This document shows, one piece after another, positions 1,790 to 45,107 of a DNA stretch of 45,182 bases. The stretch lies in the IMG/VR virus record IMGVR_UViG_3300048912_000097, positions 1 to 45,182 of that record; one strand, written 5' to 3'. Numbering within the stretch: position 1 is the first letter of the stretch; each line of letters begins with the position of its first letter. The stretch is from a virus. Below the pieces are notes generated by a model. It was not told where the DNA came from and made no database searches. It saw nothing but the letters and a program-made list of their open reading frames with translations. Position numbers and translations under genes: made by a program.

Positions 1790-3384
1790 ACGACAACCCC
1801 AACCTTGTAACGGCCGGGCACTGCCGGGCCTGCGGACCACGAGACGACGACCGGGCCGGGCCGCGCCATGACGTGACGATTAGCGCCGCCGAAGATGGCT
1901 CCGACGCCGAACGCCTCGGCCGTGACGATGCCCTGGCCGGTGAGCGGCTGCGGGGGCGGAGCGCCGGAGCTGACGACGGACACGCCGAACGCCTGAGCGC
2001 TCGCGATGCCGGTGCCGGTGATGCCGACCGGGCCGGGCGTGACCGCGCCGACGCCGAACGTCTCAGAGCTGGCGATGCCGAGCCCCACGACGCCCACAGC
2101 GCCCGGAGAGACCACAGCCGACCCGAACGCCTCCGCGGAGGCTAGGCCGACGCCTGCGATGAACTGAGGGCCGTTTGCGACGCTGATCAGGCCGACGCCT
2201 GAAGCTTCAGCGCTAGCGATGCCCGTGCCGGTGATGTTCACCGGGCCGGGAGTCACGACCGGCGTGCCGAATGCCTGAGCGCTCGCGATGCCCGAGCCGG
2301 TGACCGTGTAAACGGTCGAGACGGATCCGACGCCGAACGCCTCGGCCGACACGATGCCCGAACCGGTCAGGGCGACCGGGCCGGGCGTGACGACCGACGT
2401 GCCGAACGTCTCCGCGGATCCGATACCCGTGCCGGTGATCGACTGCGGGCCGCCGGTCGTGCTGACCGTCGCCGTGCCGAACGCCTCAGCCGACCCGATA
2501 CCGGTGCCGGTGAGCCCGACGGGGCCGGGCGTGACCGCGGCCGTACCGAACGCCTGGGCGCTCGCGATGCCGGTGCCGGTGATGCTGTACCGCGCCGAGA
2601 CGACGTTCGCGCCGAACGCCTCGGCGCTGGCGATGCCCGAGCCAGCCACTCCGACCGGGCCGGGCGTGATAACCGACGTGCCGAACGTCTCCGCCGAGGC
2701 GATGCCTGTGCCGGTGATCGACTGCGAGCCTCCGCCGCCGCCTCCGGACTGCAGAACCTCGATAGCGGCGATGTTGCTCGACGAGCCCGATATCGGAGTC
2801 CAGCCGACAGTGCCGGAGGTCGAGGTCGTCGAAGCGACCCGCCAGTAATACTGCGAGCTGTCGCCGTTCGACTGCGCCTGACCGTCTTCCGTCTCCGTGC
2901 CGATACTGCTCGACCCGGTGACGGCGCCGGTCTTGCCGTTGACGTCGGCGACGCAGCAGACGACCGCGGAGCCGACCGTGAGGCCGCTCAGCGACACGGT
3001 GCTCGCGCCGCTGATCGAGAAGGTCGTCGCAGCTCCGACCGGAGTCGCCGCCAGCGAGTAGCCGTCGGCGGCCGGGAACAGCCACGCGCCGCCCGTGTGC
3101 ATCGTCGACGAGCCCATCGTCGACGTGACCGTCAGCGTTCCGCCGCTCGACACGGTGCCGGTGTAACAGGCGATGTAATCGCCAAAACCGCTGTTGCATT
3201 CCTGGCGCTTCGTGAACGTGATAGACGCCGTGCCCGTCACGCCCGGCGCGCCGTTCGAGACGCCGGTGTCCCACGTCGTCAGGTAGAGCACGACCACGTC
3301 GCCAGCCGCTACGGTGCCGAGGTTCATCGACAGCGTGCGAGTGCTCGACGTGGTCGTGAGGTCACCTACGAAGGAGATAGCCAC
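1786..3384 (-). CDS. Minor tail protein with 12 GxGIASAEAFG repeats
   Basis: A 532-residue structural protein starting at GTG 3384, preceded by an AAGAAGGGGG ribosome site. Residues 1 to about 215 form a beta-rich, Ser/Thr/Gly-rich domain (IEVLQSGGGGGG marks its end). From about residue 220 to 500 there are twelve copies of a motif close to GxGIASAEAFGxxxVxPGP, spaced about 22-26 residues. The same motif occurs twice in the larger minor tail protein at 8178-10598. Such repeats are common in minor tail proteins of actinobacterial phages and could form stacked beta units in a fibre. A receptor-binding role is inferred. Confidence 0.75.
   Translation of the reverse strand: MAISFVGDLTTTSSTRTLSMNLGTVAAGDVVVLYLTTWDTGVSNGAPGVTGTASITFTKRQECNSGFGDYIACYTGTVSSGGTLTVTSTMGSSTMHTGGAWLFPAADGYSLAATPVGAATTFSISGASTVSLSGLTVGSAVVCCVADVNGKTGAVTGSSSIGTETEDGQAQSNGDSSQYYWRVASTTSTSGTVGWTPISGSSSNIAAIEVLQSGGGGGGSQSITGTGIASAETFGTSVITPGPVGVAGSGIASAEAFGANVVSARYSITGTGIASAQAFGTAAVTPGPVGLTGTGIGSAEAFGTATVSTTGGPQSITGTGIGSAETFGTSVVTPGPVALTGSGIVSAEAFGVGSVSTVYTVTGSGIASAQAFGTPVVTPGPVNITGTGIASAEASGVGLISVANGPQFIAGVGLASAEAFGSAVVSPGAVGVVGLGIASSETFGVGAVTPGPVGITGTGIASAQAFGVSVVSSGAPPPQPLTGQGIVTAEAFGVGAIFGGANRHVMARPGPVVVSWSAGPAVPGRYKVGVVV
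1887..2724 (-). repeat. Tandem degenerate repeats encoding GxGIASAEAFG units
   Basis: Twelve imperfect coding repeats of about 66-78 nt lie within the minor tail gene. The DNA is repetitive as well (forms of GCCGAACGCCTCGGC recur on the plus strand), so unequal recombination could change the copy number. Variation between units is mostly conservative at the protein level (AEAFG, AQAFG, AETFG), pointing to selection on the fold. Confidence 0.8.
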
Positions 3385-13975: not shown

Positions 13976-13977
13976 GT

Positions 13978-14522
13978 TTACACCTCGTCAGTCTCGGGGG
14001 CGTCTTGTGCCGCTGCGATCCGCTTAGCCTTCAGTCCGAAGTACGCAATCCACTCGGCGAACTCCGCACGCGAAAGGCGTTCCGACGCCTCGTCGACCGT
14101 GCAGTGAAGAACTTCCTCGGCTAGCTGGAAGAGGAAGTATCGTCGGTCGTCGCCTCGGAGTTTCCCTCGGCGTCTGCGACCGCGGTGTCGGTGATCTCGG
14201 ACAGCTCGCCGATAGCCTCGACGATGCGCGACACGATCGACACCGGAAGCTGGCTGATCTGCTCGACGTCGCCGTCGCGGAACACGCGAAGCCGGTTCTC
14301 GTCCTCGACGCACCGCGACACGAGGAACGCGGCGGCGTTTACACCGTCCTCGGAGAACGACTGGCGGGCAAGTTTCGCCTGATGGATCTCAAATTCCTTG
14401 ATCGTGGTTCCGCGGACCCAAACCTTCGTCGGGTTGCCGTTCTCGTCCGGCGCCTCGGGGATCTCGACCTCTTTGCGGCCGGTGTTGCCTGTCTGGTTCA
14501 GGATCTGTGACTTCAGGGACAT
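13978..14522 (-). CDS. Tail assembly chaperone GT (by -1 frameshift)
   Basis: The extended chaperone is made when ribosomes reading the G gene slip back one base on GGGAAAC at 14166-14160. The first 121 codons are shared with G. Translation then continues in the -1 frame for 60 codons (LRGDDRRYFLFQLAEEV onward, ending APETDEV), giving 181 residues. The T extension stops a few bases before the tape measure start, as in lambda-type phages, where G and GT bind and guide the tape measure during tail assembly. The fusion length is deduced from the sequence; its production is inference from the slippery site. Confidence 0.82.
14121..14522 (-). CDS. Tail assembly chaperone G
   Basis: A 133-residue product of zero-frame translation, starting MSLKSQILNQTGNTG and ending in an acidic Ser-rich tail (TTDDTSSSS). 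It has the usual size for the short chaperone and lies directly upstream of the tape measure. The central part (IHQAKLARQSFSEDGVNAAAFLVSRCV and VSRIVEAIGELS) is helical and typical of the TAC family. It is read through into GT at a low rate by frameshifting. Confidence 0.85.
   Translation of the reverse strand: MSLKSQILNQTGNTGRKEVEIPEAPDENGNPTKVWVRGTTIKEFEIHQAKLARQSFSEDGVNAAAFLVSRCVEDENRLRVFRDGDVEQISQLPVSIVSRIVEAIGELSEITDTAVADAEGNSEATTDDTSSSS
14160..14166 (-). promoter_or_regulatory. Programmed -1 frameshift site GGGAAAC
   Basis: On the minus strand the zero frame reads GAG GGA AAC, so GGGAAAC fits X-XXY-YYZ. This is the site type used by many dsDNA phages to make the G-T tail chaperone fusion. 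Slippage joins the G frame to a long open -1 frame with no start of its own. Confidence 0.88.
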
Positions 14523-22156: not shown

Positions 22157-22535
22157 GCTTCGCCCAGCGGGCGTTCGCGGCGGCGCGGTTCGCGACCGAG
22201 CGCGGCTTCTCGCCGGTCACGGGCGCGGCGTCGTCGGGCAGCTTCAGCGCGCGGAGAAGGCCAGCCAGGGTCGCGCGGTGTTGCCGCACCTCGGCTACCA
22301 GCGGGTTGATCACGTCCTGACCCATCGAGCCGCGTGTAAACAGCTTCCCGGCGGTCATTTGATCATTGAGCGCGGTCTGTAGCTGTTCGATTAGATCGGC
22401 CTCACGGGCGGCGTCCTCGACTACTCTCCGCTCATCCGCACGCAGCGAATAGCCTTCGGTGATGCCCTTCCAGAGGGCGCGACCGGCCGGGCCGAGCTTG
22501 CTCGGAGCCTTCAGAGCAGGAATATTTGCGGTCAA
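22146..22535 (-). CDS. Terminase small subunit
   Basis: A 129-residue protein. TTG 22535 is preferred: GGAGG lies 6 nt upstream and the product begins MTANIPALKAPSKLGPAGRA, the usual beginning of this family. Frame-open sequence further upstream is arginine-rich and unlike the family. A helical core (DLIEQLQTALND, VAEVRQHRATLAGLLRALKL) and a basic tail (RSVANRAAANARWAKRG) for DNA contact follow. It is encoded directly before the large subunit. A 130-nt non-coding gap precedes it and holds a 14-bp palindrome. Confidence 0.8.
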   Translation of the reverse strand: MTANIPALKAPSKLGPAGRALWKGITEGYSLRADERRVVEDAAREADLIEQLQTALNDQMTAGKLFTRGSMGQDVINPLVAEVRQHRATLAGLLRALKLPDDAAPVTGEKPRSVANRAAANARWAKRGA

Positions 22536-24090: not shown

Positions 24091-24432
24091 TCACATCGAG
24101 TAGGTTGCCCACCGGTCGCGGACCCACGCGCCGGGGCCGTTGACGACGAGGTTCGCGCCCTGCGCGATCGCCATCACAGCGTCGCCGTGACGCTTCGAGG
24201 CGTAGAGCGTGTGACCGTTGGCCGTCTCGACCGCGGCGAAGTTCGCAACCCACGCGTACGTCTTCGGCGCCGGGGCGAAGCCGAGCACCTTGCGCGCGCA
24301 GCCGGAGCCGATCTCCTGGCCGTCGGAGAGGATGAAGATCCAGCGCAGGCCCTCGCGGTCGCAGTGGCGGCAAGTGCCGTCGCCCTCGCGGTCCTCGATC
24401 TTCTCGATGGTGAGGGTCTGCGTCTGCGTCAT
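24091..24432 (-). CDS. Zinc-finger-type protein with its own leaderless promoter
   Basis: A 113-residue protein (MTQTQTLTIEKIED) with CRHCD at about 21-25 and a later GSGCARKVLGF, suggesting a small zinc or iron site, then IFILSDGQEIGSG and an Ala-rich end. There is no Shine-Dalgarno; the ATG is 6 nt after a predicted -10 and so lies at the expected transcript start. With its terminator at 23962-23992 it is a stand-alone unit inside the leftward gene block. Function unknown. Confidence 0.7.
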   Translation of the reverse strand: MTQTQTLTIEKIEDREGDGTCRHCDREGLRWIFILSDGQEIGSGCARKVLGFAPAPKTYAWVANFAAVETANGHTLYASKRHGDAVMAIAQGANLVVNGPGAWVRDRWATYSM

Positions 24433-24480
24433 GTAAGAATCATCGCATGGCCCTTACGAGCATGCAAGTGTTTACACGCA
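24430..24480 (-). promoter_or_regulatory. Leaderless promoter, class A (GTGTAAAC type)
   Basis: Minus strand: GTGTAAAC (24477-24470), then TTGCAT (-35, 24467-24462), 17 nt, GATGAT (-10, 24444-24439), 6 nt, ATG (24432). Nearly the same ~45 nt occur on the plus strand before 42004, including CGTAAGGG and TGCGATGATTCT. Confidence 0.7.
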
Positions 24481-27746: not shown

Positions 27747-29360
27747 TTAGACACCTCCTAGCGGATCGTCGTTTACACGGCCCGGCCAGTGCCCGAGCGT
27801 GTGGCCGCTCCGCTTCGTGTGGATCTCCCCGCGGGAAACCAAGATCGCGATCGCGTCGTCGATCCGGTTGTTATCCGCCTTCCCGAGGATCTGCCGGACA
27901 CCCACCCGAAGATCAGAAACACCGACGCCGGGCCGGTTCGTGATGATCGTCCGAACCGCATCCACAGCCGCCGCGCGGGCCGCCGTGAAACGGTCACCGC
28001 CCGTTATCCGTAATGCACGGGTGGCGGGCTCGAATTCGAGCGCGGCCTCCTCAGTTTCGACGTCGCGGCCCGACGCGCGGAAATAACGCGCGCCCGTCTG
28101 GTCCTTCGTCAGGATCCAGCGGACGTCGGCCCAGTCGTCGAGCCGGGTCGCGCCGCGTGACCGTTCCGCGCCTTGTTCCATTTCGCCGCGGCCGGTGTGA
28201 TTAGGCATTACTAAATGCGCGACGCCTGCCTTTTCCTTGATAATGTCCAATTGGTTCAGGAACACGCCGACGGCGCCGTTCTCGTTCTCGTCGCCGATGT
28301 AGGCGCGCGCGAACGGGTCGACGACCCACGCGGCGACCTCGTGCTCGCGCAGCCACTCGACGACCCACGCCTCGACCGACGGGACGTGCAGCGGCAGGCT
28401 GTAGCCGCGCAGGTTCAGCACGGCGACGGCTTCCGTGTTGCGGATCTGCGTGTCGCGCAGCCAGCGCCGGTACTGACTGCGGGATACCTCGTAATTGAAC
28501 AGGCCGACGCGGCCGTCGAGGTCGGCGACGCCGTACCGGCCGAGGAACGGCTCGCCGTCGACGAGCGCCCGCGCCAGGTTGTTGATCAGCGTCGTCTTGC
28601 CGCTCTTGTACTGCGCGGTGAGGAGGACGTTCGCGCCGGTCGGGAACAGCTCGTCGACGAGGTACGTCACCGGCTCGTCGGGAACCTCCAGCTCGGCCGC
28701 GAGGGTCGGCAGGTACGGCGGCACGCGGAACTCGCGGGCGGCGTCCTCGGCCTCGACGAGCCTGCGCGCTTCACGGCGTAGGCGGAGCTTCCCGACTTCG
28801 ATCAGCACGGCTGGATCGCTCGTAGACGTACCGGGCGCTGCAGATGTCGCACTCGTCGACTTGTCCGATGAGCTGGCCGTCGACGTAGGCGCGGCTGACG
28901 TTGATCCAGTCGTGGTCGTCGTCGGCACATAGTTCGGGTCGAGCGGGTCGTTCGATGCTTCCCACGGTGCAACCTCTCGGTATCGGGTGATCGTCGGTTC
29001 CGGCAGCGCGGCCGGGGTGAGCTTCCCGAATTCGAGGCCGGAGCGGATCGTCGGCAGCGTGTTCGGGTGGCCGTAGAGCCCGCCGTCGGCGGCGCCGAGC
29101 ACCTCGACGACGGTCGCCTCGTCGATGGCCCCGGCCGCGACGTAGTGGCCCATCTTCACGGCCGACTGGTTCAGTTGATCGTTGCGGCCGGTGCCGACCG
29201 GTACGGCCTGGATGTTTGCGACTTCGCCTTCGAGCGCGGCGCGGGCGTACTTCTGCGCCCGGTCGAGGTCGGCACCGGTCGGGATGACGACGGGGCCGTC
29301 GCTGGCCGGACGGGTGGCGCGTTCCTTCTTAGCGTCCCACTGATCGAACATGCCCGGCAT
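27747..29360 (-). CDS. Replicative helicase, RepA/DnaB-like AAA ATPase
   Basis: A 537-residue protein (MPGMFDQWDAKKE; GAGGAGGG 7 nt upstream). Residues ~30-115 (LDRAQKYARAALEGEVANI, NQSAVKMGHYVAAGAID) look like the primase C-terminal helical domain usually fused to prim-pol proteins. A Ser/Thr/Ala linker spans ~147-182. The RecA-like ATPase has Walker A AQYKSGKTT at 249-257, a Walker-B-like VVDPFARAY near 345, and a MPNHTGRGEMEQGAERSRGA segment as in RepA hexameric helicases. A winged-helix-like end follows. With the prim-pol gene just upstream it probably forms a split primase-helicase. Confidence 0.82.
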   Translation of the reverse strand: MPGMFDQWDAKKERATRPASDGPVVIPTGADLDRAQKYARAALEGEVANIQAVPVGTGRNDQLNQSAVKMGHYVAAGAIDEATVVEVLGAADGGLYGHPNTLPTIRSGLEFGKLTPAALPEPTITRYREVAPWEASNDPLDPNYVPTTTTTGSTSAAPTSTASSSDKSTSATSAAPGTSTSDPAVLIEVGKLRLRREARRLVEAEDAAREFRVPPYLPTLAAELEVPDEPVTYLVDELFPTGANVLLTAQYKSGKTTLINNLARALVDGEPFLGRYGVADLDGRVGLFNYEVSRSQYRRWLRDTQIRNTEAVAVLNLRGYSLPLHVPSVEAWVVEWLREHEVAAWVVDPFARAYIGDENENGAVGVFLNQLDIIKEKAGVAHLVMPNHTGRGEMEQGAERSRGATRLDDWADVRWILTKDQTGARYFRASGRDVETEEAALEFEPATRALRITGGDRFTAARAAAVDAVRTIITNRPGVGVSDLRVGVRQILGKADNNRIDDAIAILVSRGEIHTKRSGHTLGHWPGRVNDDPLGGV

Positions 29361-29393
29361 GTCAGGCCCTCCTCTCTGCTGCGTGTAAACGCG

Positions 29394-33897: not shown

Positions 33898-34367
33898 AGC
33901 GGCAGCGGGTCGCCGTATCCGGCGGCGCGGAGTAGCGCGACGGCCTCGGCGAGGAGGAGCCGCACGACCGGCAGGCGTCCCGCGCCGGTGTAGAACCACT
34001 CATTCTCGGCGAGCGCGGCTTCGGCGAGGTGGACGTACGCCCAGCCGGGCAGGAACGCCCACCATGAGCCAGCGTTCGCCGCGCCCTTCCCCTTGCGTTT
34101 ACACACGAGTACGGCGACATCGGCACGCCTGTTCACCCGCTCCGTTTCGGTTTCCGACATCCAGGCGTGGATCTGCGCGTCGGACGCCGACTCGGCGGCG
34201 TGGCCGCCTTTCACTTCCCACGCGACGCCGGGCGTGCCGGTGATGTCGCCTTCGTCGAGCGCGCCGTGCAGCGCGGGCCGTTCCGCGCTCGGGAAGCCGT
34301 GCGCGACGAGGTGCCGCACGACCGCCGTCTCGCACGCGGTGCCGATCTCCTTCGGTTTATTCACCAT
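33894..34367 (-). CDS. Holliday-junction-resolvase-like nuclease
   Basis: A 157-residue protein (MVNKPKEIGTACETAVVRHL). The order E in GTACETAVV, LDEGDITG, AWEVKGGH and a later VAVLVCKRKG fits the PD-(D/E)XK fold of phage and archaeal-type resolvases. It would cut branched DNA before packaging. It overlaps the gene upstream by 11 nt. Confidence 0.72.
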   Translation of the reverse strand: MVNKPKEIGTACETAVVRHLVAHGFPSAERPALHGALDEGDITGTPGVAWEVKGGHAAESASDAQIHAWMSETETERVNRRADVAVLVCKRKGKGAANAGSWWAFLPGWAYVHLAEAALAENEWFYTGAGRLPVVRLLLAEAVALLRAAGYGDPLPL

Positions 34368-36097: not shown

Positions 36098-36269
36098 TGA
36101 TACCGAGCAAACAGCACCTCGGCGTGTCGAAACGCGTTTCTGTTCGTTACACTCAGTGACGCCCGGATTCCCTGGCCTGCGTGATACATCGTTGGCAAGA
36201 AGTTGCCAGACTTACGCGCGCGTGCCTCGCCGGAGGGCGCCTATTTGCGCGCATGCAATAATCCCGATC
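36098..36269. promoter_or_regulatory. Divergent immunity control region
   Basis: This 172-nt gap lies between the leftward Cro-like gene and the rightward repressor. It contains a 12-bp palindrome GAAACGCGTTTC (36129-36140), a TGGCAA-GAAG-TTGCCA inverted repeat near 36193-36208, and on the plus strand a possible -10 TACACT (36148-36153). The palindrome lies between that -10 and its expected -35, as an autoregulating operator would. Promoter assignments are inference. Confidence 0.5.
36129..36140. promoter_or_regulatory. Candidate repressor/Cro operator palindrome
   Basis: GAAACGCGTTTC is a perfect 12-bp palindrome in the middle of the repressor-Cro intergenic region. No second copy was noticed elsewhere in the window. 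Confidence 0.45.
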
Positions 36270-36689
36270 ATGCCTAACGACAGTACGAAATGGGGGCCGC
36301 GCCTGTACGCGTGGCTGGAGGCGTACTGGCGCGCGAACGACACGAACGCGAACGCCTGGTCGGATGCACACCCCGGCATCCAGGGCGCCACGTTGTCACG
36401 CTGGAAGACGGGAACCGTGCCGTCCCTGCCAGCCATGCGCGCCGTAGCCGACGCCGCCGGAGTGTCGCTCGTCGACGTGCTCGCCATCGCCGGGGCGCTG
36501 CGCAACGGTGAAGCGACATCCGAGCCGCCAGTGCCCGCACCGCCGTCCATCGACGTAGCGATCGCGCAAGATCCGGACCTGTCGCCGCTTGCGCGTAAGA
36601 CGCTGCGCGACCTGCTCGGCGCGATCCGCGAGGCGGAGGCCGCGGAGCCGGAGCGGCCTCGGCGAACGAACCGGCGGCGGCCGAGGTGA
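36270..36689 (+). CDS. XRE-family immunity repressor
   Basis: A 139-residue protein. ATG 36270 (MPNDSTKWGPRLYAWLEAYW) has no Shine-Dalgarno but follows an AATAAT -10-like element by 7 nt, so leaderless translation is likely, as for lambda cI from its maintenance promoter. The helix-turn-helix is around HPGIQGATLSRWKTGTVPSL and AVADAAGVSLVDVLAIAGAL. The end is a basic tail (RPRRTNRRRPR). Divergent from the Cro-like gene and just upstream of the integrase module, it is the best lysogeny-repressor candidate. Confidence 0.72.
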   Translation: MPNDSTKWGPRLYAWLEAYWRANDTNANAWSDAHPGIQGATLSRWKTGTVPSLPAMRAVADAAGVSLVDVLAIAGALRNGEATSEPPVPAPPSIDVAIAQDPDLSPLARKTLRDLLGAIREAEAAEPERPRRTNRRRPR

Positions 36690-38240: not shown

Positions 38241-38425
38241 TCATCGTTCTGGTTGTCGGACTCGTCCTGTCGCTGTGGGTGTTCTCCGTGTTCGCGTGCG
38301 ACTGGATCGGCGCCCGCAAGGGCTACCCCGGCGGCCGCGGCCGGTTCATCGCGATGGGCGCGTTCCTCGGCCTGCTCGGCGTCGGCGTCGCCGCGATGAT
38401 GCCGGATCAACATTCGCGCGTGTAA
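38237..38425 (+). CDS. Small two-TM membrane protein
   Basis: A 62-residue protein; ATG 38237 overlaps the integrase stop (ATGA). Two hydrophobic segments: MIIVLVVGLVLSLWVFSVFA and FIAMGAFLGLLGVGVAAMM. It is co-translated with the integrase, hence probably made in lysogens; role unknown. Its stop lies at a GTGTAAAC element, so the next promoter begins inside its last codons. Confidence 0.55.
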   Translation: MIIVLVVGLVLSLWVFSVFACDWIGARKGYPGGRGRFIAMGAFLGLLGVGVAAMMPDQHSRV

Positions 38426-38466
38426 ACACTTGTGCGCCCGTCTTGCGTGCGCGTAAGATGAGGGCA
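38420..38466 (+). promoter_or_regulatory. Leaderless promoter, class B
   Basis: GTGTAAAC (38420-38427), TTGTGC (-35, 38430-38435), 18 nt, TAAGAT (-10, 38454-38459), 6 nt, ATG 38466. Shares GTCTTGCG and GCGTAAGAT with the promoters at 43972 and 44747. Confidence 0.75.
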
Positions 38467-38828
38467 TGACAACGACAACCGCCCCGGCCACCACAGTCTC
38501 ACTCCGCAAGGCTCACCACGAGCCGCTTCGCTTCGACTGCGCCGCCGAAGATGTCTGGTACGCGCTCGAAGGCCGCCCGCTGTGGTGGGACGAAGCCTCG
38601 TACATCCGCTACCAGTCGGACACGGGCGACGAGCCGTGGCGCGTCTACCGTCTCCGCCGCCAGCCGGGCTCGGCGCCGATTGAGCGCGGCTGGGCGCGCT
38701 ACGAATGGAACGAGGACACCGACGAGTACGAGCTGTCGATCTGGTTCGAATCCGACATCGCCGCCGCGAACGCCGCGCTCGACGCGAAGGCCGCCGAGTG
38801 GTCCGGCTGGGACGAGGTGCCGTTCTGA
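38466..38828 (+). CDS. Leaderless accessory protein, unknown function
   Basis: A 120-residue protein (MTTTTAPATTVSLRKAHHEP). It has no Shine-Dalgarno and starts at the predicted transcript start. The body is compact and aromatic (DVWYALEGRPLWWDEASYIR, RYEWNEDTDEYELSIWFESD) and ends WDEVPF. The first nucleotides (ATGACAACGACA) are repeated at the start of the gene at 44793. First gene of a two-gene unit ended by the hairpin at 39035. Confidence 0.7.
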   Translation: MTTTTAPATTVSLRKAHHEPLRFDCAAEDVWYALEGRPLWWDEASYIRYQSDTGDEPWRVYRLRRQPGSAPIERGWARYEWNEDTDEYELSIWFESDIAAANAALDAKAAEWSGWDEVPF

Positions 38829-39016
38829 TGGCGCGCCAGGATCCGGCCTCGCGGATCATGCGGCAGGCCGTCGCGTTCGACCGGCTCGCCGCGAAGGCGT
38901 ACCGCGCCGGGAGCTTCCCGACGTACCGCGCGTACGCGGCCCGCTCCAACCGACTGAAGCAACAGGCGCACACGATGCGCACCCGAGCGCAGGAGAGCGA
39001 CCGGAGAGCGACATAA
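38828..39016 (+). CDS. Small basic helical protein
   Basis: A 62-residue protein (MARQDPASRIMRQAVAFDRL); ATG 38828 overlaps the previous stop (TGATG). It is rich in Arg/Ala and probably a single helical bundle (AAKAYRAGSFPTYRAYAARS). Closed by a terminator. Function unknown. Confidence 0.6.
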   Translation: MARQDPASRIMRQAVAFDRLAAKAYRAGSFPTYRAYAARSNRLKQQAHTMRTRAQESDRRAT

Positions 39017-39034
39017 CCCGCCAACCAGACAGCC

Positions 39035-39058
39035 GAGGCCCCGCACCCGCGGGGCCTC
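39035..39058 (+). terminator. Hairpin terminator after 38828-39016
   Basis: GAGGCCCCGC and GCGGGGCCTC form a perfect 10-bp stem with an ACCC loop, 18 nt after the stop. The downstream U content is weak (CGCGTCGTTT). Confidence 0.65.
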
Positions 39059-39165
39059 GCGTCGTTTCCCGACCGGTCTCCGGCTTACAGGTCGACTCGT
39101 CCGTCGCCCGGCCTGTAACTACGCGGAACGTAGGCTGTGGGCCAACGTTTCCGGTACTTTCGCGG

Positions 39166-39267
39166 CGTCCCGCTGCGTCCCTGAGCGTCCTCGACCGTCC
39201 CGCTCTGCCAGCGACATCGAGCGACATTCTCGGCCCGCTGCGGGCCTCTGAGCGACACGAGAGCGAC
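39166..39267. repeat. 10-bp-phased CGTCCY and AGCGAC repeats
   Basis: Four CGTCCY units start at 39166, 39176, 39186 and 39196 with exact 10-nt spacing. AGCGAC units start at 39210, 39220, 39251 and 39262. All lie in non-coding DNA downstream of the integrase cassette. Confidence 0.55.
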
Positions 39268-39286
39268 TCGAATCTCGCGTCAGGTC

Positions 39287-39324
39287 TTGCGCTCGCGTAA
39301 TGAGTGTGCGTAACCTGGCCCGTG
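39287..39324 (+). promoter_or_regulatory. Leaderless-type promoter without GTGTAAAC
   Basis: TTGCGC (-35, 39287-39292), 18 nt, TAACCT (-10, 39311-39316), 5 nt, GTG 39322. The GTG is in frame with ATG 39352, which has its own AGGAGG. It shares the geometry of the promoter family but lacks the GTGTAAAC box. Confidence 0.55.
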
Positions 39325-39351
39325 AGAGGAACCGACGACAGGAGGAGCGTC

Positions 39352-39648
39352 ATGGGTATCAACGGTGATTATCTGACGATGGCGGAGGCGTGCGGCGAGG
39401 TCGAGCCGCGTGGCGTCTCGTTCGTGCCGGGCGTCGACTTCGACCCGTACGACGAGTACGACGTCCAGGCCGTGCGCGGCGCGATGGAGAACAGCCGGTT
39501 CGACTCGCTCCGGCGGCTCGAACGCGATAACGCCTCGCTCCGTGCGGAGCTGGCGCGGCTGTCCGGCGACCACGACGACGAGGGTTACGAAGAGGCGTGC
39601 GAGAACGTGTCCTGCACATGCGGTCACCCCGACTGCGGGGCGTGCTGA
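39352..39648 (+). CDS. Accessory protein with C-terminal Cys/His module
   Basis: A 98-residue protein from ATG 39352 (ACAGGAGGAGCGTC upstream), or 10 residues longer from the in-frame leaderless GTG 39322. It begins MGINGDYLTMAEACGEVEPR, has a coiled segment (SLRRLERDNASLRAELARLS) and ends EEACENVSCTCGHPDCGAC, a Cys/His cluster suited to zinc. Almost the same tail ends the protein at 44793-45107. Function unknown. Confidence 0.68.
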   Translation: MGINGDYLTMAEACGEVEPRGVSFVPGVDFDPYDEYDVQAVRGAMENSRFDSLRRLERDNASLRAELARLSGDHDDEGYEEACENVSCTCGHPDCGAC

Positions 39649-39649
39649 C

Positions 39650-39925
39650 ATGACTGTCGACCGGTTTGCGAAACTGAAGACTGCCGAGCAGATCGCTAGC
39701 GAGTATTACGGGCCGCGAGGGGAACGAGGCAGCGGAATGAGCGAGCAGGCGGGGGACACCGTTCTAGATCTGACCGGGGCGAAGCTGTTCGAGCACCTGC
39801 GCGTCAGCGACGAGTCGGGCCACGTCCTGATCCTGATTCCCGAGACTCAGACCGTCGTCAAGCTCACTGACCGGCAGGCCCGCCGCCTGGCCGTCGAGTT
39901 GCTGAACCGGGCGCCGGAGTCATGA
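39650..39925 (+). CDS. Accessory hypothetical protein
   Basis: A 91-residue protein from ATG 39650 (MTVDRFAKLKTAEQIASEYY), one base after the previous stop; ATG 39737 (MSEQAGD) is an alternative. The second half is strand-rich (HVLILIPETQTVVKLTDRQ), then a helix. Its stop overlaps the next ATG. Function unknown. Confidence 0.55.
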   Translation: MTVDRFAKLKTAEQIASEYYGPRGERGSGMSEQAGDTVLDLTGAKLFEHLRVSDESGHVLILIPETQTVVKLTDRQARRLAVELLNRAPES

Positions 39926-40143
39926 GCGGCCGCGCGATCGTCGGCGAGCTGTCGATCGAGCTGGAAGACGGCAGGATCCTCACGGACAGGACCGACCTCG
40001 GCCTTGCGTGGAAGTGGGCTGAGGCCGAGCACGGCGAGCTGTGGCCGAAGCTCCGGGCCGCGGAGCAACGCGCGGCCGTCTCGGATGCCCTGGCGGCGCT
40101 GAGGGCCGCGTACGAGGCGAACGAAGCCAACGAGGCCGACTAA
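39922..40143 (+). CDS. Accessory helical protein
   Basis: A 73-residue protein (MSGRAIVGELSIELEDGRIL), with ATGA overlap. A short beta start is followed by a long Ala/Glu helix (LRAAEQRAAVSDALAALRAA). Last gene of the unit driven from 39287 and closed by the terminator at 40163-40205. Confidence 0.55.
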   Translation: MSGRAIVGELSIELEDGRILTDRTDLGLAWKWAEAEHGELWPKLRAAEQRAAVSDALAALRAAYEANEANEAD

Positions 40144-40162
40144 GACCCGCATCCCCCGCGGG

Positions 40163-40205
40163 AAGGCCCGGCCGGTGTTCCTCCCACCGGTCGGGCCTTT
40201 TCTTT
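40163..40205 (+). terminator. Strong intrinsic terminator
   Basis: AAGGCCCGGCCGGTG and CACCGGTCGGGCCTT pair over 15 positions (one G-U) around TTCCTCC, followed by TTCTTT. It closes the 39352-40143 unit immediately before the next promoter. Confidence 0.85.
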
Positions 40206-40216
40206 CGCGCAACGTC

Positions 40217-40256
40217 TTGCACGCACGTCAGGAACGTGTGTAAACTCTCAACTGTG
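40217..40256 (+). promoter_or_regulatory. Leaderless-type promoter with GTGTAAAC at -10
   Basis: TTGCAC (-35, 40217-40222), 18 nt, TAAACT (-10, 40241-40246), 7 nt, GTG 40254. Here GTGTAAAC (40238-40245) overlaps the -10 instead of the -35. GTG 40254 is in frame with the SD-led ATG at 40281. Confidence 0.6.
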
Positions 40257-40280
40257 ACCACGACCCGCCAGGAGGAAACC

Positions 40281-40544
40281 ATGAAGACCGAGCCCGTCAA
40301 GACCACTGACCTTCAGGTCGGCGACCTCGTGTACGCGCACGGCTGCGTCGTCCGCCTTACCGCGGTGAATCAGCGCTGGACGGACGAGCGCACCGGCCGC
40401 CCGGTCGTCAACTTCCAGACCGAGTACGTGTCGGGCACCGCGGACTGGCCGGACGTTCACGGGTGGATCACTCGCGGCGAGTACCGCATCCAGGGCAACG
40501 ACCTCGCGACCGAGGCGCGCGTGCTGTCGGAGGTGGGCGACTGA
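40281..40544 (+). CDS. Accessory protein with dual in-frame starts
   Basis: An 87-residue protein from ATG 40281 (CGCCAGGAGGAAACC upstream), or 96 from leaderless GTG 40254 (MTTTRQEETM then the same protein). The body is beta-rich (DLQVGDLVYAHGCVVRLTAV, VVNFQTEYVSG) and looks like a small barrel. The 24 nt before the ATG are nearly identical to those before 44048. Followed by a perfect hairpin at 40561. Function unknown. Confidence 0.68.
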   Translation: MKTEPVKTTDLQVGDLVYAHGCVVRLTAVNQRWTDERTGRPVVNFQTEYVSGTADWPDVHGWITRGEYRIQGNDLATEARVLSEVGD

Positions 40545-40560
40545 GACCTGCGACCCGACA

Positions 40561-40591
40561 GTGGGGGCGCCGATACCAGCGGCGCCCCCAC
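40561..40591 (+). terminator. Hairpin terminator after 40281-40544
   Basis: GTGGGGGCGCCG and CGGCGCCCCCAC form a perfect 12-bp stem with a 7-nt loop, 16 nt after the stop. No U-run follows (CCCTTGCC), so termination may be partial; the next gene has no obvious promoter and may depend on read-through. Confidence 0.7.
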
Positions 40592-40626
40592 CCCTTGCCA
40601 GTCAACCCAGCCTAGGAGTCGACCAA

Positions 40627-41643
40627 ATGAAACGTACCAAGCTGATCCTGTCCGGCGTAGCGGCCGGGCTCGTCATGATGTCCATGTCGCCAGCCGACCA
40701 CGCCGCCGCCGCAACGGCGACCGTCGTCGACCTGCACGGCGGAACCGTCAGCGTCCCAGCCGGAGCGTTCCGGCAGCTCAAAGACGGAATGAACCTCACC
40801 ATCGAAAACGGCACCATCATCGGCGGGGGCGCCGAGGTCGTGTTCGACGCCGTGCCCGACGGCGGCCACGCGTCGGTGACGCTCTCTAACCTGACCGTCG
40901 CAGGCCCGCGGGCACTGGTCTTCGCGAAGCGGCAGGGCGGCCCGGTCGACATCACCGTCGACCACGTCAACGCGTCGCACCTCGGCGACGGCATCCGCGC
41001 CACGGCCGACGCCGTGCTCGTCACCTCGTCGACGCTGACCGGCGGCGCGAAGCCTCCGTCGGGGAACGCGGCCGGTGTCCACTCGCTCGACGACGACGCC
41101 GGGAACGTCGGGCTTCCGCAGGCGACCGTGACCGTGCTCGACTCGACCGTCGAGGGCTTCACCGGGGGCAGCGCGGGCGGCTTCTTGGAGGGTGACGCGG
41201 TCGTCGGCGAGGCGCGCGTCGGGCACCTCGACGTCGAGCGCGACACGCTCGGGCACGTCCCCGACGCCGAGGTCGACTCGAAGGCCGAGCAGGCGACCGT
41301 GAAGGACAACGTCCTGTACAGCGACGGCGACCGCGCGATCTCCTCGCACCGCGGCGTACTGACCGCCAGCGGCAACACGATCACGCAGGCGCCCGTCTAC
41401 CACGCGAAGATCTATCAGGGCAGCGGCACGCTGCACGCGTCCGGCGACGTCGTGCTCGGCCTCGACAAGGCCGACCAATTCCTCGCGTACGCGAACTCGG
41501 TTTGCTGCCCCGGCAGCGGCCCGGCGGCCTCGTACCCGCGCGTCGGCGACGTCGAGGTGACGGACATCGTCGACGGCTCCGGCGCCGTGCTCACCGGCCC
41601 GGCCCATCAAGAGGGCGGCGCGACCGTCCGCGTCTCCCCGTAA
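40627..41643 (+). CDS. Secreted right-handed beta-helix protein
   Basis: A 338-residue protein from ATG 40627 (AGGAG upstream). It has a clear signal peptide: MKRTK, hydrophobic LILSGVAAGLVMMSM, and AAAA near residue 30. The rest is a series of short strand-turn rungs (NLTIENGTIIGGG, ASVTLSNLTVAG, VDITVDHVNASHLGDGIRA, AVLVTSSTLTGG, TVTVLDSTVEGF, GVLTASGNTITQ), typical of parallel beta-helix (pectate-lyase-like) proteins. It lies among accessory genes, so it is probably a lysogeny-expressed secreted factor rather than a virion part. Enzyme activity is unknown. It resembles in plan the protein at 3723-5012. Confidence 0.75.
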   Translation: MKRTKLILSGVAAGLVMMSMSPADHAAAATATVVDLHGGTVSVPAGAFRQLKDGMNLTIENGTIIGGGAEVVFDAVPDGGHASVTLSNLTVAGPRALVFAKRQGGPVDITVDHVNASHLGDGIRATADAVLVTSSTLTGGAKPPSGNAAGVHSLDDDAGNVGLPQATVTVLDSTVEGFTGGSAGGFLEGDAVVGEARVGHLDVERDTLGHVPDAEVDSKAEQATVKDNVLYSDGDRAISSHRGVLTASGNTITQAPVYHAKIYQGSGTLHASGDVVLGLDKADQFLAYANSVCCPGSGPAASYPRVGDVEVTDIVDGSGAVLTGPAHQEGGATVRVSP

Positions 41644-41651
41644 CACCCCTC

Positions 41652-41685
41652 GCGCGGGGCCTGGCGCGGCCGCCCGGCCCCGCGC
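41652..41685 (+). terminator. Hairpin after the beta-helix gene
   Basis: GCGCGGGGCC and GGCCCCGCGC form a perfect 10-bp stem with a 14-nt GC-rich loop, 8 nt after the stop. There is no U-run. The next gene starts only 17 nt later without promoter space, so this may attenuate rather than end transcription. Confidence 0.6.
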
Positions 41686-41702
41686 ACCGATCGGAGGACA
41701 CC

Positions 41703-41951
41703 ATGAACATGCTCGACGTCAGAGAAGGCCCTGTGACCCTCGCGGTTCACGAGCGAGTGGTCGGCATGCACGCCGCGATGAACGCGCCGCGGCTGCACTG
41801 GCTGGCCGCGTACTACGCCGCTGACACGGTGGGCGCGGTTCGCTGGGGATCGCACCCCGAGTCGATAGCCGAGTCGGCCGACTGCGCGATATACGCCGAC
41901 CGGCTCGCCCGCTTCGCGGAGCTGGCCGCGCTCGGACAACTTGCCGCGTAA
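41703..41951 (+). CDS. Accessory hypothetical protein
   Basis: An 82-residue protein from ATG 41703, with CGGAGGACACC upstream (MNMLDVREGPVTLAVHERVV). It is mostly helical and Ala-rich (LHWLAAYYAADTVGAVRWGS, YADRLARFAELAALGQLAA). The stop precedes a class A promoter. Function unknown. Confidence 0.58.
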   Translation: MNMLDVREGPVTLAVHERVVGMHAAMNAPRLHWLAAYYAADTVGAVRWGSHPESIAESADCAIYADRLARFAELAALGQLAA

Positions 41952-41958
41952 TTCGTGC

Positions 41959-42006
41959 GTGTAAACACTTGCACGTCCGTAAGGGTCGTGCGATGATTCT
42001 CGCATG
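41959..42006 (+). promoter_or_regulatory. Leaderless promoter, class A
   Basis: GTGTAAAC (41959-41966), TTGCAC (-35, 41969-41974), 17 nt, GATGAT (-10, 41992-41997), 6 nt, ATG 42004. Almost a copy of the minus-strand promoter at 24430-24480. Confidence 0.72.
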
Positions 42007-42033
42007 CAAGCAAACCCGACCGGAGGAGTCACC

Positions 42034-42594
42034 ATGAACCGCGAAGCCTGGCTCGAAGCCGCGATCAACGCCCTGCGCCCGATGCTCGAAGAGAACGGGT
42101 CGCCCGTGCCCGCCGACGTCCGCGTCTCCTGCGGCTTCCCCGGCGGCAAGTCCGTTCACAAGGTCATCGGCCAGTGCTGGGCGTCGAAGGCGAACGATGG
42201 CGTCTCGCAGGTCTTCGTGTCGCCGCTCCTGCACGACGGCGTCGAGATCCTCGCCGTCCTCATCCACGAACTAATCCACGCCTGGAACGACTGCAAGGAC
42301 GGCCACAAGGGCGCGTTCCGTCGTGCAGCGCTCGCGATCGGCCTCGAAGGCAAGATGACCGCCACGACCGCGGGCGAGGCCCTGACGGGGCGCCTCGGCG
42401 AGCTGGCGGCCGAGCTGGGCGACTACCCGCACAAGAAGATGACGCTCGCCGACCTCGGCATCAAGAAGCAGACGACGCGCATGATCAAGGTCGAGTGCCC
42501 GGCGTGCGGCTACGTCGTGCGCACCACGGCTAAGTGGCTGGAGATCGGCACGCCGACTTGCGTGTGCGGCGAGTCGATGGAGGCCGCCGCGTGA
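42034..42594 (+). CDS. SprT-like zinc metalloprotease
   Basis: A 186-residue protein from ATG 42034 (CGGAGGAGTCACC upstream), or 196 from the leaderless in-frame ATG 42004 (MQANPTGGVT first). VLIHELIHAWNDCKDGHKGAF has HExxH (H78, E79, H82) and a third ligand H91, as in the SprT/Spartan family; the C-terminus has a zinc ribbon (CPACGY, CVCGE). Spartan proteases cut DNA-protein crosslinks; phage versions may remodel DNA-bound host proteins. First gene of a unit of six or so overlapping genes. Confidence 0.8.
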   Translation: MNREAWLEAAINALRPMLEENGSPVPADVRVSCGFPGGKSVHKVIGQCWASKANDGVSQVFVSPLLHDGVEILAVLIHELIHAWNDCKDGHKGAFRRAALAIGLEGKMTATTAGEALTGRLGELAAELGDYPHKKMTLADLGIKKQTTRMIKVECPACGYVVRTTAKWLEIGTPTCVCGESMEAAA

Positions 42595-42845
42595 TGCCCG
42601 GCGGCTTCACGCGTGCCTACCGACTTGCGCACGCGCATCGCGTGCGCGAGACCTATCAACAGCAGAACCGACACGAGGGGGAGAAGATGCGACGGAAGAT
42701 GACACAGGCCGAGCACGACGCGATGAGCCGCGCGGATGAGGAGGCGCCGCGCGGCGCGGCCGGGATGGCGCTCGCGCTGGTCTTGCTCGTCGCGTTCGCG
42801 ATCCTCATCGCCGCGCCGATCGTCGCTGTGGTGTTGGTCCGGTGA
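42594..42845 (+). CDS. Single-TM membrane protein
   Basis: An 83-residue protein; ATG 42594 overlaps the previous stop (TGATG). ATG 42687, after GAGGGGGAGAAG, is an alternative giving 52 residues. A basic N-terminal part precedes one TM segment (MALALVLLVAFAILIAAPIVAVVLV). A tail-anchored small protein of unknown function. Confidence 0.55.
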   Translation: MPGGFTRAYRLAHAHRVRETYQQQNRHEGEKMRRKMTQAEHDAMSRADEEAPRGAAGMALALVLLVAFAILIAAPIVAVVLVR

Positions 42846-43030
42846 GCGTCCTCGACGACATCGCGCACCGGCTCACTGAGGAGGAGCGCGACGAGTGGCG
42901 CGACGAGGCGGCCGCGCTCCGCCGCAAGATCGCCGCCGCGTTGCGCTGGCACACCGCTAGCGGGCACATCTGCACAACGTGCCGCGAGGACCACCCGTGC
43001 AACACCCTCCGAGCGCTGGACGCGCCGTGA
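42842..43030 (+). CDS. Small Cys/His protein
   Basis: A 62-residue protein from GTG 42842 (GTGA overlap; MSVLDDIAHRLTEEERDEWR). A charged helix is followed by HTASGHICTTCREDHPCNTL, with Cys and His in zinc-like spacing. Function unknown. Confidence 0.58.
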   Translation: MSVLDDIAHRLTEEERDEWRDEAAALRRKIAAALRWHTASGHICTTCREDHPCNTLRALDAP

Positions 43031-43482
43031 GCGTCCCGCACGGCCTCGACCGCTACCTGAACCACGACCGCTGCCGCTGTGATGTCTGCCGGACGGCGAA
43101 CCGCCGCGCGCACAAGCTCCGCGAGCTGCGAGTCATACGCGGCCAGCCGGGGCCGCGTGACACGACCTGGACGCTCGGCGCCCGGCGCCGCTGCGAGGCT
43201 CTGCAACTGAACGGCTGGTCGCTGCGCGAACAGGGCCGCCTCGCGGGCGTTCCGCATCTGCGCGACCTGATCCGTCACGACCGGATCGAGCAACGCACGC
43301 ACGACAGCATCGACGAGCTGTACCGCCGACTGTGGGACAAGGCCGCGCCGCGCCGCACGCAGCGGGAGCGGCAGGCGTACACGCGCGTCGTGAACCGGGC
43401 GCGCGCACTCGGATTCAAGCCCGCGCTTGCGTGGGACGACATCGACTCGATGTACGAGTCAGGAGAGGAATGGGTCGCATGA
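43027..43482 (+). CDS. Zinc/HTH-type DNA-binding-like protein
   Basis: A 151-residue protein from GTG 43027 (GTGA overlap; MSVPHGLDRYLNHDRCRCDV). The N-terminal HDRCRCDVCRTANRRAHKLR resembles the short Cys motif found at the start of many actinobacterial HTH proteins. The middle (RRRCEALQLNGWSLREQGRLA) looks like a recognition helix region. It is strongly basic and may bind DNA. Confidence 0.6.
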   Translation: MSVPHGLDRYLNHDRCRCDVCRTANRRAHKLRELRVIRGQPGPRDTTWTLGARRRCEALQLNGWSLREQGRLAGVPHLRDLIRHDRIEQRTHDSIDELYRRLWDKAAPRRTQRERQAYTRVVNRARALGFKPALAWDDIDSMYESGEEWVA

Positions 43483-43718
43483 GCGCGAAGCCGCAATTCA
43501 AGACAGGGCGCCCCCGCGCCGGGGACACGATCAGCTATACGGATATGGGCGGCGAGCTGCGCACCGGCACCGTGTGGTCGGACGCGCCCGGCCGGGCCGT
43601 GTGGGTCATCCGCCCGGATCGCGAGATGGTGCGCGTGCAGGTCGGCAACGCTCGGAATCCGGGGCACAAGGAAGTCGACTCGGCCGAGTGGCAGCAGTAC
43701 CGCGGGCGCGCGTCGTGA
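43479..43718 (+). CDS. Small barrel-type hypothetical protein
   Basis: A 79-residue protein from ATG 43479 (ATGA overlap; MSAKPQFKTGRPRAGDTISY). Strand-rich (LRTGTVWSDAPGRAVWVIRP), with an SH3-like or KOW-like look. Its neighbour downstream has a similar plan. Function unknown. Confidence 0.55.
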   Translation: MSAKPQFKTGRPRAGDTISYTDMGGELRTGTVWSDAPGRAVWVIRPDREMVRVQVGNARNPGHKEVDSAEWQQYRGRAS

Positions 43719-43963
43719 ACGCGAAGAGGACCGTCCCCGCGCGCGAGATCAGCGACCGAACGACGCTGCCGTTCATGTCCGTTCAGATCCAGAGCGGCGA
43801 CAAGCTCGCGATCGACGGGCACCGCGGGCTCGTCGAGTTCCTCGGCTTCACCCGCCACGACAACGGGAACGAGTGGGTCGACGTGATGACGGCTCGCGGG
43901 AAGATGCGCACCGTCCGGCCGAGCGCGATCCGCGAAGTTCACCTCGCCCGACGCCCCGCGTGA
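43715..43963 (+). CDS. Small barrel-type hypothetical protein
   Basis: An 82-residue protein from GTG 43715 (GTGA overlap; MNAKRTVPAREISDRTTLPF). MSVQIQSGDKLAIDGHRGLV, then VDVMTARGKMRTVRPSAIRE suggests a small beta barrel. Last gene of the unit starting at 42034; no terminator hairpin is obvious before the next promoter at 43972. Confidence 0.55.
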   Translation: MNAKRTVPAREISDRTTLPFMSVQIQSGDKLAIDGHRGLVEFLGFTRHDNGNEWVDVMTARGKMRTVRPSAIREVHLARRPA

Positions 43964-43971
43964 ATCCGCGC

Positions 43972-44020
43972 GTGTAAACGCTTGACCCTTCGTCTTGCGC
44001 GTGCGTAAGATGGGCTCATG
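43972..44020 (+). promoter_or_regulatory. Leaderless promoter, class B
   Basis: GTGTAAAC (43972-43979), TTGACC (-35, 43982-43987), 18 nt, TAAGAT (-10, 44006-44011), 6 nt, ATG 44018. This is the closest to a consensus sigma-70-type promoter in the set. Confidence 0.8.
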
Positions 44021-44047
44021 CCAGCGACGACCCGCCAGGAGGACACC

Positions 44048-44689
44048 ATGAACGCGACCGCCACGCAGCCCCGCACCCGCGAGCAGCTCGAAGCCGCCGC
44101 CGCCGAGCACGGCGCGAAGTTCGGCCCGAACGCCGCCTACCACGCCGGGCAGTACGTCGCCCGCCAGGTCGCGGCCGCCGAGCGCGAGGCTTACTGGATC
44201 GAGGACCGCCGCACGATCCGCCCGCGCTACATCGCCGCGCTGGACGCCGCCCGCACCCGCGACAGCGAGCGCGCTCAGGCCGCCGCCGCCCGATACAACG
44301 CCGCCCGCCGGGCCGCCGGGCTCCGCTTCGACACGACGTTCGACTACTCGGACACCTCCGACGTCGCGCGCGCCGCCCGCTCGATGATCTTCGCCAACAG
44401 CCAGATGGAGGCCGCCCGCAACGCCCTCGCCCGTGCGACCGCCCCCGGCACCGGCACGCCCGAGGCCGAGCTGATCGCGGCCGCCGAGGCTGGCGAGATC
44501 GAGCCGAGCGACCTGCTGGCGACCGTGCCTGACGAGTTCGGCCGGTGCTCCGCGTTCGCCGTGTTCGTGCAGAGCAGCCGCCGCGGCTACGCGATCCGTA
44601 ACCTGCGCCTGCACGACGCGCTCACCACGGCCCGCCGCCTGCGGGAGCCCGGCCAGCGCGCCGAGGTCGGCCGCGACCTCTGCGGCTAA
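44048..44689 (+). CDS. Ala/Arg-rich helical accessory protein
   Basis: A 213-residue protein from ATG 44048 (CGCCAGGAGGACACC upstream), or 223 from the leaderless in-frame ATG 44018 (MPATTRQEDT first). It is almost wholly helical (QLEAAAAEHGAKFGPNAAYH, ARTRDSERAQAAAARYNAAR, ARSMIFANSQMEAARNALAR). Coiled-coil or structural roles are possible; no family is recognised. Single-gene unit with its own promoter and terminator. Confidence 0.68.
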   Translation: MNATATQPRTREQLEAAAAEHGAKFGPNAAYHAGQYVARQVAAAEREAYWIEDRRTIRPRYIAALDAARTRDSERAQAAAARYNAARRAAGLRFDTTFDYSDTSDVARAARSMIFANSQMEAARNALARATAPGTGTPEAELIAAAEAGEIEPSDLLATVPDEFGRCSAFAVFVQSSRRGYAIRNLRLHDALTTARRLREPGQRAEVGRDLCG

Positions 44690-44704
44690 GCCCCCACGGA
44701 CGCG

Positions 44705-44744
44705 AAAAAGGCCCCGCACTCACGAAGAGTTCGGGGCCTTTTTT
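44705..44744 (+). terminator. Strong intrinsic terminator
   Basis: AAAAAGGCCCCG and CGGGGCCTTTTT pair, with an inner ACTC/GAGT stem, and a T-run follows; the A-run on the other side makes it bidirectional. The 3' edge runs directly into the next GTGTAAAC box (44747). Confidence 0.9.
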
Positions 44745-44746
44745 GC

Positions 44747-44795
44747 GTGTAAACGCTTGACCGGCTGTCTTGCGTGTGCGTAAGATCGAGGCATG
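44747..44795 (+). promoter_or_regulatory. Leaderless promoter, class B
   Basis: GTGTAAAC (44747-44754), TTGACC (-35, 44757-44762), 18 nt, TAAGAT (-10, 44781-44786), 6 nt, ATG 44793. Very similar to the promoter at 43972. Confidence 0.8.
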
Positions 44796-45107
44796 ACAAC
44801 GACAGCCGCCCAGACCGCCAGCCAGGCCACCCGCGAGAACATGCTCACCGCGCACGCCCGGTGGGTCGAGGCATGCGACGCCGTCGCCGCCCTCAACCGG
44901 CTCCTGAACTCCGACCGGTCGTACGACGGTCAGCGCGAGGCCCTGCTCCGCCCGCTGCGCCGTAACGCCGCCGTTCGCGAGCTGCAGTACAACGAGGCCG
45001 CGTACGCGTGGAACGACGACAACGCCCGCGACGACGACGCCGGGTACGCCGAGGCGTGCGAGGACGTGTCTTGCCACTGCGGCCACCCCGACTGCGGAGC
45101 CTGCTAA
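44793..45107 (+). CDS. Leaderless accessory protein with C-terminal Cys/His module
   Basis: A 104-residue protein (MTTTAAQTASQATRENMLTA) without a Shine-Dalgarno, starting at the predicted transcript start. A helical body (ARWVEACDAVAALNRLLNSD) leads to an acidic stretch and the ending AEACEDVSCHCGHPDCGAC, nearly the same as the end of the 39352-39648 protein. Single-gene unit between two terminators. Function unknown; zinc binding by the tail is inference. Confidence 0.7.
   Translation: MTTTAAQTASQATRENMLTAHARWVEACDAVAALNRLLNSDRSYDGQREALLRPLRRNAAVRELQYNEAAYAWNDDNARDDDAGYAEACEDVSCHCGHPDCGAC

Follow-up and report, generated by a model that had tools for sequence, protein, structure and literature searches.

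The main result of this analysis is a short DNA word that, as far as sequence comparison can tell, follows one phage gene, that of a SprT-like metalloprotease. The word, GTGTAAAC, was studied in the complete IMG/VR virus record IMGVR_UViG_3300048912_000097 (45,182 bases, 67.9% G+C; hereafter the window), where the initial annotation had described it as part of a family of near-identical promoters, and it belongs to a site family, GTKTAAAC, that recurs in very different phages. The seven promoter-like sites of the window appear to be regulated, sigma-A-like promoters of a leaderless type, and we consider it fairly probable that the word at these sites is read by the phage's own SprT-like protein (42034..42594, plus strand); the transcription start, the binding and the direction of control are what we infer here. 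Because GTGTAAAC is scattered through unrelated phages that have a SprT-like gene in common, the dispersed word suggests a previously unnoticed phage control protein.

Within the window GTGTAAAC is present in 13 copies, against 0.28 expected (0 of 100 shuffles), and it is the most over-represented octamer (rank 1) both there and in all 11 other word-carrying actinophage genomes tested (Caron, GardenState, Wildwest, Zeta1847, Percival, TforTroy, Intolerant, Honk, 4A, Emotion and Powerpuff), with 13-40 copies per genome, 40 being the count of Intolerant. Orientation is mixed in largely one-directional genomes (7 and 16 copies on the two strands in TforTroy, 21 and 19 in Intolerant), and in four phages there is an intergenic excess, with 7/17, 8/16, 11/25 and 5/22 sites lying within 8-9% of the genome. 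Its palindromic neighbour GTTTAAAC takes rank 1 in Dinoroseobacter phage R5C, Methylophilales phage Venkman (34% G+C) and Acinetobacter phage Alexa, and stands directly upstream of the SprT gene in Alexa and in the E. coli phage ep3. The word is absent or single in Mendokysei, Bernal13, B22, Footloose, Bovely and Buttrmlkdreams, and SprT was searched for and not found in the last three. A host-encoded reader was rejected, as the count of GTGTAAAC in host-type chromosomes equals that of a reversed control pattern, namely the level of chance; the idea of operators shared with capsid relatives (the Mycobacterium phages Bernal13 and Mendokysei, and prophages of Mycolicibacterium and Nocardia) was dropped as well, the word being absent or present once in these. 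Our literature search found nothing linking GTGTAAAC or GTTTAAAC to phage regulation, and nothing on GTKTAAAC in phages. As a separate observation, the word exactly fills the interval between a purine-rich stretch resembling a Shine-Dalgarno sequence and an ATG at 7186 and 18720 in Wildwest and at 2154, 2375, 2611, 3789 and 4658 in Venkman, and arrangements of this kind in distant phages include AGGAGT-GTTTAAAC-ATG and GGAGGAC-GTTTACAC-ATG.

Of all proteins, only a SprT-like one was found throughout the 14 other genomes that bear the word (15 with the window). When 80 IMG/VR loci fetched by SprT similarity were compared with 80 control loci fetched by capsid similarity, GTKTAAAC was enriched in 76 of the former and in 2 of the latter. 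The pooled SprT loci contain 295 sites of GTTTAAAC (versus 4.1) and 251 of GTGTAAAC (versus 7.8), which makes them the top octamers save those overlapping them, and the word lies within 160 nucleotides (nt) upstream of SprT in 28 of the 80 loci, with 9.9 expected. The contig densest in the word, which had been retrieved only by a promoter-like match, also carries SprT. We also note that TATCCACA/GTGGATAA, which resemble DnaA boxes, are strongly over-represented in about 35 of the 80 SprT loci.

The window protein has an HELIH motif, a C-terminal zinc ribbon and, just before the ribbon, the sequence KKQTTRMIK; the HEXXH motif and a third histidine are present, with H78, E79, H82 and H91 conserved in alignments. 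It matches phrog_6361 at 2e-47 and the Pfam SprT-like domain with 19.7 bits, under the gathering cut-off of 25.6, and its structure is predicted confidently, with a pLDDT (predicted local distance difference test) of 92.8, this model giving no match with E below 0.35 in a fold search of the PDB. A QxTR motif precedes the zinc ribbon in the SprT proteins of word phages, as it does in the window, and is missing from those of Eden, Bernstein and CN1, whose genomes hold 0, 0 and 1 copies of the word. Epa5 and Quenya, examined afterwards and also without QxTR, contain no copy within their 64 and 42 kb. Among the SprT proteins without the motif from loci that are nevertheless enriched in the word, the arginine is kept at this place in 4 of 4. 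Scans for further SprT relatives of the wordless type returned only two loci of the Eden/Bernstein type and one with the Alexa query.

The promoter-like sites of the initial annotation were recovered as described, with the same coordinates and spacings, 6 nt from -10 to start codon at five sites and 5 or 7 nt at two, and the same two sequence classes. An ATG or GTG thus stands 5-7 nt past the -10 in 7/7. The five main sites read GTGTAAAC-R-C-TTGNNN, a spacer, a -10 and exactly 6 nt to ATG. Class A has a 17-nt spacer and the -10 GATGAT (not TANNNT), and comprises the cassette at 24430..24477 on the minus strand (GTGTAAAC 24477-24470, -35 TTGCAT, -10 24444-24439, ATG 24432) and the cassette before the SprT-like gene at 41959..42006 on the plus strand (-35 TTGCAC, ATG 42004). 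Class B has an 18-nt spacer and the -10 TAAGAT, and comprises 38420..38468 (-35 TTGTGC, -10 38454-38459, ATG 38466), 43972..44020 (-35 TTGACC, ATG 44018) and 44747..44795 (-35 TTGACC, ATG 44793), all on the plus strand. Two plus-strand variants have 18-nt spacers as well: 39284..39324 is without GTGTAAAC (-35 TTGCGC, -10 TAACCT, 5 nt, GTG 39322), and at 40214..40256 the word (40238-40245) overlaps the -10 TAAACT (-35 TTGCAC, 7 nt, GTG 40254). The sequence GTGTAAACNCTTG is found 9 times in the window at up to 2 mismatches, against 0.77 expected.

Seven copies of GTGTAAAC lie outside the cassettes, on the plus strand at 2306..2313, 22334..22341 and 29383..29390 (between divergently oriented open reading frames) and on the minus strand at 13976..13983 (at a GTG-TAA gene end), 14337..14344, 27771..27778 (followed by an AGGAGG-like sequence) and 34097..34104. 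Its presence in the five cassettes, reported by the initial annotation, is confirmed; its standing as a promoter element is not, and GTGTAAAC is a genome-wide word in varying registers and not a part of the promoter. In the cassettes it adjoins the -35, and relative to the predicted start its centre lies at -41.5 in class A and at -42.5 in class B, an activator-like position when judged by class II activators. Both classes and the two variants also share a 16-bp dyad, CTTGC-N5-CGTAAG, which had been missed on first inspection. At no more than 1 mismatch it occurs 7 times in the window, exclusively at these sites (0.51 expected, 0 of 100 shuffles): at 24468-24453, 41968-41983, 39286-39301 and 40216-40231 (1 mismatch in each of the last two) it covers the -35 and is centred about -28.5 to -30.5 relative to the predicted start, and in class B (38442-38457, 43994-44009, 44769-44784) it covers spacer and -10, with its centre at -16.5. 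Since its position slides relative to the core, the dyad looks like an operator and not like a core promoter element.

Placement of the start codon was examined with the pattern CTTG-N19..22-TANNNT followed by any downstream ATG, offsets being counted per genome. In the window the offset is 6 three times and 34, 35 and 36 once each, the values of 34-36 arising from downstream ATGs; the offsets elsewhere are 6 (three), 7 (three) and 36 in Caron; 6 (four), 7 and three scattered values in GardenState; and 5 (one), 6 (six), 7 (five), 14 and 25 in Zeta1847, which thus has 12 sites at 5-7 nt. Only offsets of 37-39 were seen in Arthrobacter phage Wildwest, and the search gave no ATG offsets in Mendokysei. 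Given the peaks in the window, Caron, GardenState and Zeta1847, start-codon placement after the -10 is a genuine architectural feature in several phages, and the repetition of such a cassette in one phage, which had been called unusual, is matched in Microbacterium phages, with 12 sites in Zeta1847. What recurs in related phages, where a search had been proposed, is the spacing and not the exact cassette: the pattern GTGTAAACNCTTGN{5,21}CGTAAG gave 11 IMG/VR matches, all chance-like, and a looser pattern gave chance matches among the matches listed. In Zeta1847 the start of the SprT gene itself is of the leaderless type; in Caron and in Wildwest it follows a leader of about 37 nt. Some further observations concern annotated starts: in Zeta1847 those at 19283, 33389, 39686, 42383, 43223, 45050 and 45516 lie upstream of or within the cassette, and a conserved ATGACGAACACCACC (MTNTT), found where the transcript is predicted to start, resembles the true start of several genes. 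The wordless Microbacterium phages Eden and Bernstein have a leaderless-type start, TACTAT-CGAACC-ATG, before SprT.

The mechanism that we propose starts from these positions. Transcription would begin on or beside the ATG or GTG and give an mRNA translatable without a leader, which in 4/7 cases would also bear an in-frame Shine-Dalgarno start 27-30 nt further on. Two factor sites would act on the core promoter, GTGTAAAC from its activator-like position and the dyad over the core from a repressor-like one. The SprT-like metalloprotease would read GTGTAAAC through its C-terminal zinc ribbon and the preceding QxTR motif, and it would control itself, as its own gene has such a promoter. We regard it as the most likely reader of the dispersed site family. 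More tentatively, it is possible that phage SprT-like proteins form a new class of sequence-specific DNA-binding regulators, in which a zinc ribbon with the arginine of QxTR reads GTKTAAAC (8-40 copies per genome, in phages of Actinobacteria and of Alpha-, Beta- and Gammaproteobacteria) and thereby regulates phage genes, its own among them; in phages of clusters AZ and EH such a protein might be, or work with, the unfound repressor.

Several observations weigh against this proposal. The 41.9-kb contig G030 has 10 copies of the word, and neither there nor in three short word-enriched fragments was SprT found. The association between QxTR and the word (81/4/4/7 in 96 loci and genomes, Fisher p 8e-6) supports the proposal, but it comes from a panel of related phages, so that p-values overstate independence, and the losses of QxTR amount to about three clades. 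SprT also occurs in phages of groups generally regarded as lytic, and the protein is therefore not simply a lysogeny repressor. The register of the word varies by phage (before the -35, within the spacer, across the -10 or behind it), and no fixed word-to-start distance was found over all copies. Since the word is also found within genes and without such a distance, its main role may be other than promoter control. One such role would be that GTKTAAAC marks phage DNA for packaging, replication, anti-restriction or protection from a host enzyme, its promoter copies being incidental. Copies run along the entire genome, in structural genes and on both strands (as in Intolerant), and the homologue in Bordetella phage CN1 is annotated as an antirestriction protein; we nonetheless find this rather unlikely in view of the intergenic excess in four phages, the constant -41.5/-42.5 placement in five window promoters and the surplus of copies before the SprT gene. 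Alternatively, GTGTAAAC could have a different reader encoded by the phage, either an immunity repressor of the classical kind or a sigma-like protein, with SprT as a lifestyle-linked passenger. No further protein is common to all word-bearing genomes, and the loss of one SprT arginine accompanies word loss, so we hold such a reader to be unlikely, even though the dispersed sites resemble stoperators, the homoimmune AZ and EH phages have no identified repressor (PMC8758107), and a sigma-like or DNA-binding gene lies near SprT in them. The sigma-like protein, which resembles sigma region 4, is encoded close to SprT at 34597-35439 in locus L257 and at 31621-32589 in Zeta1847; in the window it has no homologue.

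The promoters themselves admit two simpler readings. In ordinary leadered genes the predicted transcription start would merely fall on the ATG or GTG, and translation would begin at a downstream ATG with a Shine-Dalgarno sequence; such an ATG does lie in frame downstream of 39322, 40254, 42004 and 44018, by 30, 27, 30 and 30 nt (at 39352, 40281, 42034 and 44048), for the SprT gene, alignments with homologues begin at the second ATG (at residue 2 of the product made from it), and Wildwest has leaders of 37-39 nt at comparable sites. These points also count against a purely leaderless reading. No Shine-Dalgarno alternative was seen at 24432, 38466 and 44793, however, an ATG or GTG follows the -10 at 5-7 nt in every window site, all four second starts are in frame, one despite a 3-nt difference, and the second start is absent in most of the 12 sites of Zeta1847, all of which makes the leadered explanation improbable. 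Recent duplication of one promoter, with no special regulation, seems very improbable: the class B copies are strongly similar and the leaders at 40254 and 44018 have CGACCCGCCAGGAGG in common, yet the conserved words change position against the core from copy to copy, for which plain duplication offers no explanation, and identical words occur in unrelated phages. The leaderless mRNAs that the initial annotation predicted are favoured by the geometry, as the 6-7 nt peak recurs in Caron, GardenState and Zeta1847 and fits the actinobacterial TANNNT-to-start pattern, and the transcript start remains a prediction. An exclusively leaderless start is disfavoured at the 4/7 sites with a second in-frame Shine-Dalgarno ATG and could therefore apply to three at most. 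For at least three genes a leaderless start is plausible, and both starts may be used at the dual-start sites.

Leaderless transcripts of Mycobacterium tuberculosis likewise have a TANNNT -10 placed for a start at ATG or GTG (PMC3898074), and the window differs in repeating its cassette with extra operator-like words and a -35-like TTG, at starts that are predicted. The many copies of a short asymmetric site, at promoters and between genes, recall the stoperators of cluster A phages such as L5 and TipsytheTRex (PMC9283540). However, GTGTAAAC has 8 bp and not 13, has many intragenic copies and occurs in both orientations, so that it does not follow the direction of transcription; its candidate reader is a SprT-like metalloprotein, no L5-type repressor was identified, no direct search having been made, and the repressor-like genes of the window have no GTGTAAAC upstream. 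The start-associated sequences (SAS/ESAS) of cluster K mycobacteriophages (PMC3203893) and cluster EF Microbacterium phages (PMC7302621) are also repeats linked to starts, with an inverted repeat just upstream of some small genes. In SAS a repeated 13-bp element occupies the ribosome-binding site of leadered genes, with 17-bp inverted repeats upstream, which is not the case in the window: its starts have no common 13-bp element, and the 16-bp dyad overlaps the core promoter (-35/-10) instead.

The temperate phages of cluster AZ (Arthrobacter) and of the EH-like group (Microbacterium) share GTGTAAAC, CTTGCG words and the SprT-like gene with the window, and the Microbacterium phages also its leaderless spacing; in AZ/EH-like phages, however, the word is in the spacer or after the -10 and not upstream of the -35, and the structural genes are largely different. 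The AZ phage Powerpuff forms stable, homoimmune lysogens (PMC8758107), and for Microbacterium phages repeats are described in clusters EC, EF, EG and EI, the passages found reporting none for EH (PMC7302621). With SprT/Spartan (SPRTN, PMC5127644) the phage proteins share the HEXXH metalloprotease motif and the class of DNA-binding metalloproteases, although they score under the Pfam cut-off. The association reported here ties a short word to one gene of unknown role in very different phages, to the level of a single residue. We know of no sequence-specific site for Spartan proteins. The role of phage SprT-like proteins is now directly testable, and they are a concrete candidate for the regulator that is missing in the homoimmune AZ/EH phages. 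The data also add a set of repeated leaderless-type promoters in phages, where some annotated starts appear to be wrong, and they provide a natural case in which a single gene can be compared with a leaderless and with a leadered start.

As to general organization, the gene content of the window is that of a siphophage of temperate type. Terminase, portal, capsid and tape measure are encoded on the minus strand, and an integrase gene (37089-38240) precedes a series of small genes oriented rightward; the capsid is nearest to those of Mycobacterium phages and of prophages in Nocardia and Mycolicibacterium. The helix-turn-helix repressor-like gene at 36270..36689 (plus strand, phrog_3949) and the Cro-like gene at 35813 were considered as readers of GTGTAAAC and rejected, their intergenic region being without the word; because its upstream region has no copy, the former is probably not the reader. 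That region (36129-36260) has palindromes of its own, GAAACGCGTTTC, TTGGCAAGAAGTTGCCA and TTGCGCGCATGCAA, which are unlike the words of the right arm and probably serve the immunity switch as operators. The gene at 40627-41643, one of the small rightward ones, encodes a protein that begins with a signal-like N-terminal stretch and whose sequence is repetitive and resembles a beta-helix. Lastly, the small proteins encoded at 39352-39648 and 44793-45107, otherwise unlike, have in common the C-terminal motif GYxEACExVSCxCGHPDCGAC, a possible metal-binding tail.

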